Positions 30,558 through 57,217 of a stretch of 64,000 nucleotides of DNA are shown here, piece after piece. The DNA comes from Bacteroidota bacterium (GTDB lineage Bacteria; Bacteroidota; Bacteroidia; Palsa-948): contig JACQAL010000013.1 of NCBI GenBank assembly GCA_016195025.1, positions 1-64,000 of the forward strand. The letters run 5' to 3'. Under the pieces are notes generated by a model that saw nothing but the letters and a program-made list of their open reading frames with translations, searched no databases and was not told the origin of the DNA. Positions within the stretch are counted from its first letter, which is position 1. Each line of letters begins with the position of its first letter. A program made the translations under genes and the position numbers.

Positions 30558-31555
30558 AAAAGTTTCTGATTTATATCTTTTGTTTTTTTGCCGTCCTGCT
30601 GAGCGGAAAAGAAAAAAGTTTCTCGCAGTTGATGCACTTCACACAGTTTTATGCCGCGCCAACTTTTCTTAATCCCGCTTTTGCCGGGCTTGGAACCTGC
30701 TCGCGCGTAAATACAAATTACCGCGTTCAATGGCCCGAAATTCCCGGAGCATTCGTTACCACGCTCGTTTCCTTCGACCATCAGCTTTTTAAAAACCGAA
30801 CCGGTCTTGGATTTTTATTTACCAACGATAAAGCCGGAAGCGGAAATCTTCACTCCTCCTCTTTTGCCGGGCAGTACTCGCACCAGTTTTTACTCGGGCA
30901 TGGATGGAGTGCGAATGCCGGTGCCGAAGCAGGATACGTGATTCGCGATTATAACTTTTCAAAATTTGTTTTTGGCGACATGATTGCGTATGGAACTTCC
31001 GTCTCGGTGGAACAGCCCAATGCGCTGCGTGTGCATTATCTTGATTTATCATCGGGAGTTTTATTTTACAACCGGAGAAACTGGATTGGGCTTTCTGCAC
31101 ATCACATGAACATGCCAAATCAGGCGGTGATAAGTTCGGATAGCCGCTTGCCGGTTTTATATTCGGTTCACATGGGAACAAAAATTCCTGTGGGGAAAAA
31201 AATTGACCCAAATGATAATAATCCGCAGGAAAGCATCACGCCTGCATTTAATTACCGCCATGAAAATAAATTTGACCAGGCAGATATCGGATGTTATTAC
31301 GCCCGCCTTCCGCTCGTGCTCGGAATGTGGTACCGCGGCATTCCGCTTTTCAAATCCTATCAGCGCGGCTATCAGAATAATGATATGATTTCACTGATTG
31401 CCGGAGTTGCCATTGACCGTTTCAAGTTCGGTTATAGTTATGACGTAACTATTTCGCGCCTCTGGAAAAATACGGGCGGCTCGCATGAAATTTCTTTGTC
31501 CTACCAGTTCTGCAAGCAGCAGCCGAAAAAAGCATTTGCCTGCCCGAAGTTTTAG
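30554..31555 (+). CDS. PorP/SprF family outer-membrane protein
   Basis: 333 residues. Signal peptide (about 1-25, KSFSQ), then the family start LMHFTQFYAAPTFLNPAFAG, the RVQWPEIPGAFVTTLVSFDH block, alternating beta strands of a barrel, and GVAIDRFKFGYSYDVTISRL near the end. PorP/SprF proteins are outer-membrane partners of type B T9SS substrates and are often encoded next to their adhesin, as here; SprF is needed for SprB export in Flavobacterium. The signal peptide holds a decayed GTCCTGCTGAGCGG repeat. The C-terminus YQFCKQQPKKAFACPKF is short and basic. It is distinct from the PorP of the gld cluster. Confidence 0.9.
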   Translation: MKKFLIYIFCFFAVLLSGKEKSFSQLMHFTQFYAAPTFLNPAFAGLGTCSRVNTNYRVQWPEIPGAFVTTLVSFDHQLFKNRTGLGFLFTNDKAGSGNLHSSSFAGQYSHQFLLGHGWSANAGAEAGYVIRDYNFSKFVFGDMIAYGTSVSVEQPNALRVHYLDLSSGVLFYNRRNWIGLSAHHMNMPNQAVISSDSRLPVLYSVHMGTKIPVGKKIDPNDNNPQESITPAFNYRHENKFDQADIGCYYARLPLVLGMWYRGIPLFKSYQRGYQNNDMISLIAGVAIDRFKFGYSYDVTISRLWKNTGGSHEISLSYQFCKQQPKKAFACPKF

Positions 31556-36572: not shown

Positions 36573-37295
36573 CTATTTCAATGAATCAGGTTTTGCCGGA
36601 GCAGGAGTTTTTACTTTAGAAGAATCGGAAGAGGTTTTCCCTTTCTTGTTTTTCCTGAGTTTCTTTTCAAAAGCATTTTTATTTGCTTTTGAGGAATCAG
36701 ATGAAACAGGAGAATCCGGCTTTGCAGATGATTTATTTTTTCCGGATGTATCGGGCGGAAGAATAGTTGCGGGAGCGGGAACTGTATCTGAAATAGTTGG
36801 CGCAAGCAAAGAGATTTTAATTTTCTTTTCTTTCTTTGATTCTGCCGGATTGATTTTGGCTTTCTCTTTAAAATCCGCAATGAGAGAATCTGCTTTTCTT
36901 TCCTGCGCAGAAAGCGCAATGGTATCAACTTCTGTTTCGGCAGAAGTTTTCGGAGTATCAATTTTTACATTTGCAATTGCGGGCGAAGAATCGGCAACAA
37001 TTTTTTGCGTATCCGCCATTAATGTATTTGCAGAAACAGGAACTTCATTTTCTGCAGGAAGAGAAGAATAATATTGGATGAGTTTAAAAATTCCGAAGAC
37101 AAGAATTACTGACATCGCGGCAGCGGAAGAAATTAAAATAGTTTTCTTGCTGACTTTAACCTGCAATGTTTGACGTTCGTGCTTCAACAAAACCTCTACT
37201 TCACTCCAGTCAGCCGATGGAATATTTTTTTCGGAAGATTTCAATGTCTCAATTATAAACTTATCTAACTGCCCGGGTGTTTTCATTTTCATCAT
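36573..37295 (-). CDS. Single-pass membrane protein, candidate anti-sigma factor 2
   Basis: 240 residues. The cytoplasmic N-terminus (1-50) has PGQLDKFIIETLKSSE and the SADWSEVEVLL helix typical of small sigma-binding domains in Bacteroidota. One membrane helix lies at 51-74. The remainder is a Lys/Ser/Pro-rich, probably disordered periplasmic tail (SKKEKKIKIS, KNKKGKTSSDSSK). It overlaps the ECF sigma gene by ATGA (37292-37295), strong evidence that the two work together. No zinc anti-sigma motif (HxxxCxxC) is seen. The role as anti-sigma factor is inferred from context and topology. Confidence 0.6.
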   Translation of the reverse strand: MMKMKTPGQLDKFIIETLKSSEKNIPSADWSEVEVLLKHERQTLQVKVSKKTILISSAAAMSVILVFGIFKLIQYYSSLPAENEVPVSANTLMADTQKIVADSSPAIANVKIDTPKTSAETEVDTIALSAQERKADSLIADFKEKAKINPAESKKEKKIKISLLAPTISDTVPAPATILPPDTSGKNKSSAKPDSPVSSDSSKANKNAFEKKLRKNKKGKTSSDSSKVKTPAPAKPDSLK

Positions 37296-37873
37296 TGCGG
37301 AATCATTCGCGCAATATTTTTTCTGAGATTAAATTTTGCTTTTGATAAACTGTCTTTTGCCGTGTATTCGCTGATGTCGAGCAGTTTTGAAATTTCTCCA
37401 TACGAATAGCCGTCCATTTCATAAAGATTATATACTGCACGATATGAAGGAGATAATTGCTGAAGCGCTTTCACGATAATTTTTCTGTCTGCCGATTTCA
37501 TAATTTGTTCATCGGAAATTTCGGCAGTCACCGGTTTTTCCAAATCGCGGGCGTTCACCGTGCTGCTCACAAAATATTCCCGTTTGTTTGCGTGCATGTG
37601 GCGAATGGCTGAAGAAATTATTTCCTTTTGTATCCATTCTTCGAGAGAAATTTCGTTGCCGTCTTTTTTTCTTTTTGCATTTTCACCTGCAAAATGAGAA
37701 AAGTTGTTGAAAATATTTTTAAACCCATCCAGAAAAATTTCTTTTGCATCGGGGTGATTTTTTGAATAGCGGATGCATATCTCCATCATTCTTTCGGAAT
37801 AAATTTCACAGAGTGCGCGCTGGCTGGCGCGCTCATGTTTCATACAACCATGTATGATTTCTTCTTCGCTCAT
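37292..37873 (-). CDS. Diverged ECF-type RNA polymerase sigma factor 2
   Basis: 193 residues from the ATG at 37873; a GTG three codons upstream is the alternative. Region 4 is clear: QLSPSYRAVYNLYEMDGYSYGEISKLLDISEYTAKDSLSKA gives the helix-turn-helix with the GYSYGEIS core. Region 2 is recognisable but altered (HPDAKEIFLDGFKNIFNNFSHF). Between regions 2 and 4 there is a charged insertion (AGENAKRKKDGNEISLEEW). It should direct RNA polymerase to a small regulon. The gene is translationally coupled to the membrane partner downstream. The stimulus is unknown. Confidence 0.83.
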   Translation of the reverse strand: MSEEEIIHGCMKHERASQRALCEIYSERMMEICIRYSKNHPDAKEIFLDGFKNIFNNFSHFAGENAKRKKDGNEISLEEWIQKEIISSAIRHMHANKREYFVSSTVNARDLEKPVTAEISDEQIMKSADRKIIVKALQQLSPSYRAVYNLYEMDGYSYGEISKLLDISEYTAKDSLSKAKFNLRKNIARMIPQ

Positions 37874-37912
37874 CTGCTTCACGAAGTTATCGAATTTCCT
37901 ATTGGCGAAAAT

Positions 37913-37943
37913 AAAAAAGCCCCGAAATAAATTTCAGGGCTTT
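37913..37943 (-). terminator. Terminator after the anti-sigma 1 gene
   Basis: On minus AAAGCCCTGAAAT pairs with ATTTCGGGGCTTT with one mismatch, followed by a T-run. It separates the two sigma/partner pairs into two transcription units. Confidence 0.8.
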
Positions 37944-37959: not shown

Positions 37960-38916
37960 TTACCTGTACAAGGTTACCGAACCTTTTTTTACATGTGGAA
38001 TGCCATCGGTTCCGGATGCCTGAATAAAATAAAGATAGACACCTTCTGGCGCATCGCTTCCGTTCATTAATTTTCCGTTCCAGTTTCCATCAATTGTTTT
38101 CCATTTATAAACAAACCGTCCTTTTGTATCAGTAATTGTTACTTCAATGGATGAAATGTTTTTTACTACAAGCGGATAAAAATAATCATCGTATCCGTCT
38201 CCATTCGGAGTAAATGCATTGGGAATAGAATCAATTCTTGAAACGGGTTTGGATTCGGTTTTGGAAATATCTTCCGGCTCTGAAGAATTATTTTCATTTA
38301 CATTGTTTGAACTTTCTTTACCGCTTGCAGAGGAATTATCTTTTGAGGAATTTGTTTTAGGGCTTTGATACTTATTCCATCGCACCATTCCTCCATCATC
38401 TTTTGAGGCGTTTCCATATTTATGCGATTCTGCAGACAAAGTTGCAGAAGAATTATCGGAAGAGGGAACCGTTGAGGAAGCATTTTCTCCGGAAGAAGAA
38501 TTGTTTTTTACAGAGTTATCATTAGCAGATTGATTGGAGGAATGAACAACCGGAGAATTTTTCTTTTCAGATTGTGTGGCGGAAGAATTCGCTGTTGGAT
38601 TATTTTCAGCCGTTAAATTATTTTCTGTGTTTGGAGAAGGTGAAACAACTTCGGTTTTGTTTTTACGTTCCGGCAGAGCGGTTGTAGTTTTATTTTCCGT
38701 ATGTGAAAAATACCAAACGCTGCCCGCAATTCCTGTAACAGCGACCGCTCCGGCAATAATTTTTCCCAACGCAAACTTGGCAGCAGTTCCTGCAGCGCTT
38801 CCAACTCCAGAAGAAATTCCGCTTTGAACATTTGCCCACACATTCGGGTTTACATCCGCTTCAAAATTCCGGAACTTCTCCTTAAAAAGTTTTTCTATGT
38901 TATCTTGATTCGTCAT
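37960..38916 (-). CDS. Membrane protein with anti-sigma-like N-terminus and T9SS type B-like C-terminal domain
   Basis: 318 residues, no signal peptide. The N-terminal 45 residues (NIEKLFKEKFRNFEADVNPNVW) match the short cytoplasmic segment of Bacteroidota sigma-linked membrane proteins. A single membrane helix spans about 48-70. A long Ser/Asn/Thr-rich linker (about 75-215) leads to a domain with the CHU_C/type B sorting pattern: SIPNAFTPNGDGYDDYFYPL, VTITDTKGRFVYKWKT, DGNWNGKLMNGSDAPEGVYL, KGSVTLYR. Such a domain on an inner-membrane protein is unusual, because type B domains normally target secreted proteins. The gene starts three bases after the ECF sigma stop. I infer an anti-sigma factor whose ectodomain may interact with T9SS parts. 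Confidence 0.7.
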   Translation of the reverse strand: MTNQDNIEKLFKEKFRNFEADVNPNVWANVQSGISSGVGSAAGTAAKFALGKIIAGAVAVTGIAGSVWYFSHTENKTTTALPERKNKTEVVSPSPNTENNLTAENNPTANSSATQSEKKNSPVVHSSNQSANDNSVKNNSSSGENASSTVPSSDNSSATLSAESHKYGNASKDDGGMVRWNKYQSPKTNSSKDNSSASGKESSNNVNENNSSEPEDISKTESKPVSRIDSIPNAFTPNGDGYDDYFYPLVVKNISSIEVTITDTKGRFVYKWKTIDGNWNGKLMNGSDAPEGVYLYFIQASGTDGIPHVKKGSVTLYR

Positions 38917-38919
38917 TAG

Positions 38920-39510
38920 TTAGTTGTCAGTTGATAGTTGTGTCGCTTCGTTTTTGATTTCCATTATTACTGCTCCTGCCATTGCCACTTCGCTTTTTAG
39001 CATATTCTGCAAATGAACTTTTGCGCGCGAGTATTGCGATTTAGATGTTCCTTCTGTAATTCCAAGTAACTCTCCGATTTCTTTGTGCGAATATCCTTCA
39101 ATGGCATACATATTAAAAACGGTTCTGAATCCAACGGGCAATTTCTGAATCATCCTGAGCAAATCTTTTTCATTTATTTTTTCTCCTATGTGATTATTTC
39201 CCGGAATCATATAGGTTGCATCTTCAATATCTATGTTCATTTGCATCGGTTTGTTTTTTCTCAACAGCGTAAGCGATTCGTTCATCACAATTTTCCGTAT
39301 CCATCCTTCGAGCGAGCCGCTGCCGCGAAAGGTTTCTATTTTTTCAAACACGCGGATGAAACTGTTCTGCAGCATGTCTTCAGCTTCTTCGCTTCGTTCG
39401 GCATACCTGAGGCAGATACCCATCATTTTGCGACTGAACTTTTCAAAGAGGGCTTTCTGAGCCGCTGGGTTCTTTGAAACACATCCTTTGAGAAGTTCTT
39501 CATCCGTCAT
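38920..39510 (-). CDS. ECF-type RNA polymerase sigma factor 1
   Basis: 196 residues. Region 2 is canonical (AERSEEAEDMLQNSFIRVFEKIETFRGSGSLEGWIRKIVMNE), and region 4 has KLPVGFRTVFNMYAIEGYSHKEIGELLGITEGTSKSQYSRA. The protein belongs to the sigma-70 ECF group; relatives such as SigP of Porphyromonas control T9SS genes, but orthology cannot be judged here. The last residues ATQLSTDN come from a GTTAGTTGTCAGTTGATAG-type repeat at the gene end. A -7 box TAGATTTG lies 53 bases upstream. It is paired with the membrane protein directly downstream. Confidence 0.9.
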   Translation of the reverse strand: MTDEELLKGCVSKNPAAQKALFEKFSRKMMGICLRYAERSEEAEDMLQNSFIRVFEKIETFRGSGSLEGWIRKIVMNESLTLLRKNKPMQMNIDIEDATYMIPGNNHIGEKINEKDLLRMIQKLPVGFRTVFNMYAIEGYSHKEIGELLGITEGTSKSQYSRAKVHLQNMLKSEVAMAGAVIMEIKNEATQLSTDN

Positions 39511-39563
39511 CCGACTCTGAGTTTTAGATGCAGTTTGGAAGCATTTGGTTGCATGGAATAATG

Positions 39564-56275: not shown

Positions 56276-57217
56276 TTATCTCAAAAATCTTGGGTTGATA
56301 TGACTTTGTGTTTTGGATTTGGGAGCAAGTTTCACGCAATAGTTAAGAAGTATTTCATGCGTGTTGCTGTGATATGTTTTTAATCCTGAAATTCCGAAAT
56401 CATACGCATATCCTATTTTCAGGGTTGACCTTGCATTGGGGCTCCATGCAAATCCCACCAGCGGAACAATGGCATCCTGCAGGCGGTAGGATGCGCCAAG
56501 CCATAACATATCATTATATATAAGGCGAAGGTTTGCATCGAAGGTGGTAACTGCGGCATCACTTTTCACATGCACCGAAGGACAAAGTTTTATTTTGCTT
56601 GAAAGAATAAAATCATATCCGGCTAACACATAGTAATGGCGCGCTGCCTGGTAATCAAATTTTTTAGCCTGGATGCTTTGCTGCGGAAGATGCGAAGAAG
56701 AAATTCCCACAAACAACTGGTCGGTTCTGTAATACGCGCCTAAACCCAAATCGTATGTCATTTTTCCCAAAGCGGCTGCAGGAATTGCATTATCGCTTTG
56801 CCCGTTCGTTCCATCGGGAGCAAGCCAGTTGTATTGAACAGAGGTTTGAAGAATTCCCAACTCAAGCCCGATGCCGAGCAATCCGGTTTGCCCGATTGGC
56901 TTATGAAAAGAATACGCACCGCGCGCCTGAATGAAATTAAAGTTTCCGAGTTTATCATTTATCACCGTTAATCCGGCTCCGCCATGCAACGCGGCAACGG
57001 GAGCATCGGCAGTAAATAAAATGGACTTGGGCGCACCGGGAAATCCCACCCATTGCGTGCGGTAAGCGGCAGTAGCGCAAATAGCGCCATTGGTTCCTGC
57101 AAAGCCGGGATTAATCGGAAGTTTGATAAACATGTTCTGGCTGAACTGCGGGTCTTGCTGAGCAAAGGCGAGCATTGCTGCAAAAGATAAACTAAGCGAC
57201 AGTAAAATTTTTCTCAT
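56276..57217 (-). CDS. porP: PorP/SprF family T9SS outer-membrane protein
   Basis: 313 residues. Signal peptide (LAFAQ), then QDPQFSQNMFIKLPINPGFAGTNGA, the RTQWVGFPGAPKSILFTADAP block, and barrel strands through GASYRLQDAIVPLVGFAW and LKIGYAYDFGISGLKTYHSNTHEILLNYCV. As first gene before gldKLMN it holds the usual porP position. PorP-type proteins dock type B cargo and may link the motor ring to the surface. It is a different sequence from the PorP/SprF paralogue at 30.5-31.6 kb, so the window shows at least two. Confidence 0.92.
   Translation of the reverse strand: MRKILLSLSLSFAAMLAFAQQDPQFSQNMFIKLPINPGFAGTNGAICATAAYRTQWVGFPGAPKSILFTADAPVAALHGGAGLTVINDKLGNFNFIQARGAYSFHKPIGQTGLLGIGLELGILQTSVQYNWLAPDGTNGQSDNAIPAAALGKMTYDLGLGAYYRTDQLFVGISSSHLPQQSIQAKKFDYQAARHYYVLAGYDFILSSKIKLCPSVHVKSDAAVTTFDANLRLIYNDMLWLGASYRLQDAIVPLVGFAWSPNARSTLKIGYAYDFGISGLKTYHSNTHEILLNYCVKLAPKSKTQSHINPRFLR

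Follow-up and report, generated by a model that had tools for sequence, protein, structure and literature searches.

An ECF sigma factor and its membrane-anchored partner, encoded within the 64,000 nucleotides analysed here (hereafter the window), may form a switch in which a modified T9SS type B signal serves as periplasmic sensor and T9SS cargo genes are placed under control, a reading whose chances we hold to be about even. To our knowledge, little is understood, outside PorXY-SigP, of how Bacteroidota adjust the synthesis of their large surface and secreted T9SS proteins to the capacity for export. In the family described here, present in many genomes, one sigma switch brings together an altered T9SS signal and a predicted regulon of T9SS cargo, and through it the cell may match the making of exported proteins to their export. 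A specialist would be surprised that a widespread anti-sigma factor, whose sigma factor appears to control T9SS cargo, carries a T9SS signal with a specific alteration. A search of the open-access literature yielded no paper connecting an anti-sigma factor to a T9SS sorting domain; closest among published systems are Dma1-3 (PMC13088901) and the loop of PorA and PorXY-SigP (PMC7712824). The analysis also supplies exact sites for this family, namely two residues of the domain, the sequence of one promoter and a set of target genes.

The gene pair and its products

Both genes lie on the reverse strand. The sigma factor (38920-39510) is a small protein of 196 residues with Sigma70_r2 and r4_2 and nothing else, which is the make-up of an ECF factor; PF04542, PF08281 and PF04545 all score above cut-off over regions 2 and 4, and TIGR02937 reaches 91.3 bits. 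Downstream of it, after a gap of exactly three nucleotides (38917-38919), comes the partner gene (37960-38916; 318 residues), followed by a strong intrinsic terminator (37916-37943, reverse strand) made of a 12-bp stem and a T-run. The original prediction had read the partner as an anti-sigma-like start, one membrane helix, a Ser/Asn-rich linker and a CHU_C/type B-like end, and profiles, hydropathy, composition and an AF2 model confirm this order of a cytoplasmic domain, a membrane helix, a disordered linker and a type B domain, the last in modified form.

The putative anti-sigma domain (residues 1-35; 38812-38916, reverse strand) is delimited by conserved columns, the AF2 model and a profile match. 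It is made of two short helices (residues 4-20 and 24-35), modelled with low confidence (about 50 pLDDT), and its conserved alignment columns are E8, K12, F15, E19, V22 and W27. A short two-helix segment that binds sigma ahead of a membrane helix would be the layout of a Class II (CnrY-like) anti-sigma domain; the helices here are modelled at about 50 pLDDT, and this part at less than 50 in a model where the sigma factor and the N-terminus were joined as a single AF2 chain by reading through the TAA stop; that model gave no confident docking. PDB matches of the N-terminal profile were designed proteins and short chance matches, none of them meaningful. Class I anti-sigma factors neighbour few Bacteroidetes ECF factors (PMC7406223), so other anti-sigma classes are to be expected.

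About 46 residues precede the sole membrane helix (residues ~47-71; 38704-38778, reverse strand), which stands out by hydropathy in the window protein and its orthologs, and the Sec signal peptide of cargo proteins is absent. The linker that follows (residues 72-227; 38236-38703, reverse strand) is predicted to be disordered from its composition, alignment and a pLDDT below 50 across most of its length, with 34 Ser and 24 Asn among residues 81-225. Orthologs in the genus carry one PKD domain in this region and the window member none. The C-terminal type B (CHU_C/TIGR04131) domain (residues 228-318; 37963-38235, reverse strand) was delimited by profiles, AF2 and fold match, and its profile-matched part, residues 231-318 of 318, runs to the very end of the protein. 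PF13585 (CHU_C) matches residues 231-315 with an E value of 1.1e-15 and scores 57.9 against a cut-off of 27, and TIGR04131 scores 41.7 bits against 35, so that both Pfam and NCBIfam thresholds are passed. The ectodomain is also predicted to fold like a type B domain, the point on which the original prediction could have foundered: pLDDT exceeds 90 for most of residues 231-318, PorZ of the T9SS is the best PDB fold match, and PorU is among the closest solved folds. The fold is Ig-like and gives weak matches to many Ig domains.

Conservation of the pair

Conservation, the other point on which the prediction depended, holds in the genus and is widespread in the class Bacteroidia. The pair occurs in five of the six other genomes of the genus (which make up the entire order among the genomes examined), with N-terminal parts 40-46% identical, and in the loci read it lies beside the same asd-, miaB- and uvrC-like neighbours, named from a reading of their sequences. 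A paralogous pair of the genus, called group B, has two PKD domains, and directly behind it comes a large PKD/type B cargo gene in four of five readable loci, that of the host genome included. One genome of the genus (G003) has neither an SprA hit nor the pair of the window type (group A), and retains group B together with many type B cargo genes; this may be an assembly gap or a true loss.

A profile search of named genomes found the same architecture with an upstream ECF gene in MAGs labelled Flavobacteriales, Crocinitomicaceae and Bacteroidia and in one labelled Chitinophaga. A profile of the N-terminal 80 residues detected the N-terminal domain in 177 of the 395 genomes of Bacteroidia and in 98 of the 197 genera. 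The C-terminal ends are diverse: among 84 members sampled, 72 have CHU_C, 52 have PKD and about eight end in a beta-barrel, the known Dma form, the CHU_C share being biased upward because the sample was ranked by likeness to CHU_C-type members. In 106 of 107 loci (the 84 sampled members and further loci), the gene immediately upstream encodes an ECF factor, at distances of -29 to +48 nucleotides. Since sigma factor and partner are conserved together in genus and class, the pair in the window is not there by chance, and we strongly infer that the partner is the anti-sigma factor of the adjoining ECF sigma factor.

The N-termini of the CHU_C forms and of the beta-barrel (Dma-like) partners are homologous (hhalign probability 99.2%), and from this shared part the two look like a single anti-sigma family with interchangeable outer-envelope ends; Dma-type anti-sigma factors would thus occur with more than one such end. 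The host genome itself has a Dma-like pair (C57, L076:1417-3404), an ECF gene with a 469-residue partner carrying an OMP_b-brl_2 barrel. The window partner found nothing as a single-sequence query against the genome contigs, and an alignment query succeeded. Three short type B proteins of the genome (C33, C4 and C65), taken up by their length as possible further partners, proved to be ordinary secreted proteins. Co-occurrence with the T9SS is uninformative as support, since SprA is present in 385 of the 395 class genomes.

A type B domain without its Arg-Trp

In what way is the domain modified? Ninety type B domains of anti-sigma factors were set against 81 of cargo proteins, drawn from the same loci and genomes. 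Trp in the "DRWG" motif occurs in 74 of the 81 cargo domains and in none of the 90 anti-sigma domains. In the window partner, Thr-Lys (residues 264-265; 38122-38127, reverse strand) takes the place of the cargo Arg-Trp, and the protein thus reads D-T-K-G and lacks the cargo motif, whereas cargo encoded directly downstream of such pairs has RWG in 17 of 17 cases. Everything else that characterizes the signal is retained, that is the FTPNGDGxND loop, the W-x-G loop (W and G at 100%), the GxY strand and the final strand, and all 90 domains end within six residues of the protein C-terminus. One split of the tree groups 86 of the 90 anti-sigma domains with two cargo domains (support 0.7), from which the loss of the DRWG Trp was probably one ancestral event rather than several.

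Secretion of an SprB fusion was blocked when any one of five type B motifs was mutated (PMC12618676), and DRWG may correspond to one of them, "motif B". The simplest interpretation of the alignment is that the anti-sigma type B domain would not be processed as normal cargo.

Promoter and predicted regulon

A predicted autoregulatory ECF promoter, TGCAACC-N15-GCATCT (39526-39553, reverse strand), is present as a perfect match that ends 15 nucleotides before the start codon of the sigma gene, and orthologous sigma genes from other orders are likewise preceded by it, in another order with an identical layout. The looser pattern GCAAC-N15..19-[ACG][AG]TC stands ahead of 78 of the 99 CTD-type pairs, where shuffling predicts 0.9, and ahead of none of seven barrel-type loci. 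With at most one mismatch allowed, sites outnumber those of a reversed-pattern control in each of five genus genomes (23/5, 22/4, 12/2, 10/5 and 12/4). Perfect sites number 15 in these five genomes, compared with a total of four in 16 class genomes without the family, and the idea that GCAACC is a general Bacteroidota promoter motif was dropped on this count.

The genes behind the sites are mostly those of T9SS cargo. In the host genome, seven of the eight genes just behind intergenic sites (the sigma factor's own excluded) encode sorting domains, three being type B and four type A cargo, and the eighth, close to the end of a contig, encodes a long protein whose start resembles a signal peptide. 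Over the five genus genomes the count is 17 of 29 (nine type B, eight type A). Against a 16% background the binomial P is 2e-7, with 3e-9 for type B alone, values that overstate independence since orthologous sites recur among the five genomes; the host genome by itself gives 2e-5. The background was set deliberately high, counting 57 type B and up to 408 type A candidates in a genome taken to have 2,900 genes. In a second family the signal is weaker: a sorting domain was detected in three of 14 genes behind sites, and three more of these encode long secreted proteins that extend beyond the sequence examined. That the sigma factor drives its own operon together with T9SS cargo genes is a strong inference.

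In three genomes of the genus (L258, L284 and L302), TGCAACC-N15-GCRTCT also stands ahead of topA, the gene for DNA topoisomerase I, which is an unexpected member in a regulon rich in cargo. Group B type sigma genes (L063, L067, L068 and others) are preceded by a sister promoter class, GGCAACC-N16/17-CGTCNTA, which suggests that the paralogous sigma factors have distinct promoter specificities.

How the switch may work

In the mechanism that we propose, the anti-sigma N-terminus would bind the sigma factor and retain it at the inner membrane, and the modified type B domain, held in the periplasm on a flexible linker and often accompanied by PKD domains, would be the sensor. This domain may vie with genuine cargo for the T9SS, or for a cargo partner, without being normally exported itself. 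Once freed, the sigma factor would transcribe its own operon and a set of T9SS cargo genes. The likeliest logic is a feedback in which engagement or release of the domain tunes cargo transcription to export status, and it could run in either direction. Engagement of the free T9SS may release the sigma factor, in which case cargo would be made only at spare capacity; conversely, engagement may keep the sigma factor bound, and a blocked machine would then switch cargo on. The first arrangement, with cargo made at free capacity, would be the more useful loop. Sensing of T9SS or cargo status by the type B domain is a weaker proposition than the anti-sigma role itself. Bolder still, and somewhat doubtful in our judgement, is the claim that loss of a shuttle-docking Arg-Trp made the signal non-exportable and turned it into a tethered probe of free T9SS capacity, by which the export machine licenses cargo transcription in a large share of Bacteroidia.

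The original prediction had proposed a tethered decoy reporting secretion load or failure to the sigma factor. Its T9SS link is favoured by the mostly-cargo predicted regulon and by type B motifs that are all kept except Arg-Trp, as a retained decoy might keep them; the reporting of secretion load or failure by the anti-sigma factor is plausible.

Three other explanations have to be weighed. The partner may be a Dma-like trans-envelope anti-sigma factor, with a PorP/SprF-like barrel delivering or holding the type B domain at the outer membrane, a tether spanning the periplasm, and the state of the outer membrane or surface, not secretion load, being sensed. Its parts follow the same order as those reported for Dma in PMC13088901 (anti-sigma domain, helix, disordered tether, outer-membrane end), its N-terminal domain is common to CHU_C and barrel forms, the distance from membrane helix to domain is at least 123 residues, and type B domains do anchor cargo to PorP-like barrels (PMC9143113). 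Yet the Arg-Trp found in nearly all cargo is missing, mutation of a single type B motif was enough to stop secretion of an SprB fusion (PMC12618676), no PorP/SprF shuttle gene adjoins the pair at this locus, and a chain anchored in the inner membrane would stay threaded through the outer one, all of which makes this explanation rather unlikely. We consider it unlikely, too, that a type B fold taken from a cargo protein now serves as a plain Ig-like sensor in the periplasm, reading a ligand or some partner in the envelope, with the T9SS uninvolved. The lost Trp, the Ig-like fold and the presence of PKD domains, which are common binding modules, would suit such a sensor; it sits poorly, however, with remaining motifs that are kept class-wide (the invariant W-x-G loop above all), with a domain that is always C-terminal and with a predicted regulon of T9SS cargo. 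Finally, a true substrate, cleaved off the membrane and exported through the T9SS so that the sigma factor is freed as FliA is by FlgM export, would account for a signal-like C-terminal domain and a long disordered linker open to cutting, and is very improbable given the missing DRWG Trp and the fact that no cleavage signal was identified.

Comparison with known systems

In the flagellar FlgM-FliA system, the sigma factor controls the substrates of a secretion route, and its anti-sigma factor is linked to that same route. If the feedback model holds, the window anti-sigma factor would likewise be tied to the export route of its sigma factor's targets; unlike FlgM, it is membrane-anchored and concerns a different machine.

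Closer in build are Dma1, Dma2 and Dma3, which work with Das sigma factors in Bacteroides thetaiotaomicron (Pardue et al., 2024, cited after PMC13088901). They share with the window family an ECF neighbour, an N-terminal anti-sigma domain, one membrane helix, a long disordered tether and a terminal outer-envelope domain. That terminal domain is a beta-barrel in the Dma proteins and a T9SS type B domain in modified form, in many cases joined by PKD, in the window family, which moreover differs from barrel-type loci in its GCAAC promoter class and predicted T9SS cargo regulon.

In Porphyromonas gingivalis, PorA and PorXY-SigP form a loop in which a protein with a T9SS C-terminal domain acts back, by way of an ECF sigma factor, on transcription linked to the T9SS (PMC7712824). 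Here too a T9SS C-terminal domain would be tied to ECF-dependent, T9SS-linked transcription. PorA, however, stands on the surface and works via a two-component system, while the window domain is fused to a predicted anti-sigma factor, and SigP targets T9SS component genes (PMC7712824) where the predicted targets of the window sigma factor in the genus are mostly cargo genes. With type B CTD cargo (PMC9143113; PMC12618676) the partner has its C-terminal domain family in common; in contrast to such cargo and its PorP/SprF shuttles, it has an internal membrane anchor and lacks a Sec signal peptide, the Arg-Trp motif and an adjoining shuttle gene.

Related genes in the window

The window contains two PorP/SprF-like shuttle genes, at 30620-31504 on the forward strand and at 56339-57166 on the reverse strand. 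With 17 such genes in the host genome and 57 type B hits, shuttles may be shared by many type B proteins. Immediately behind the pair described here lies another ECF sigma/anti-sigma pair (36573-37882, reverse strand), whose partner has a helix and a Ser/Lys-rich tail without type B domain or barrel, and whose position is kept in five genomes of the genus.
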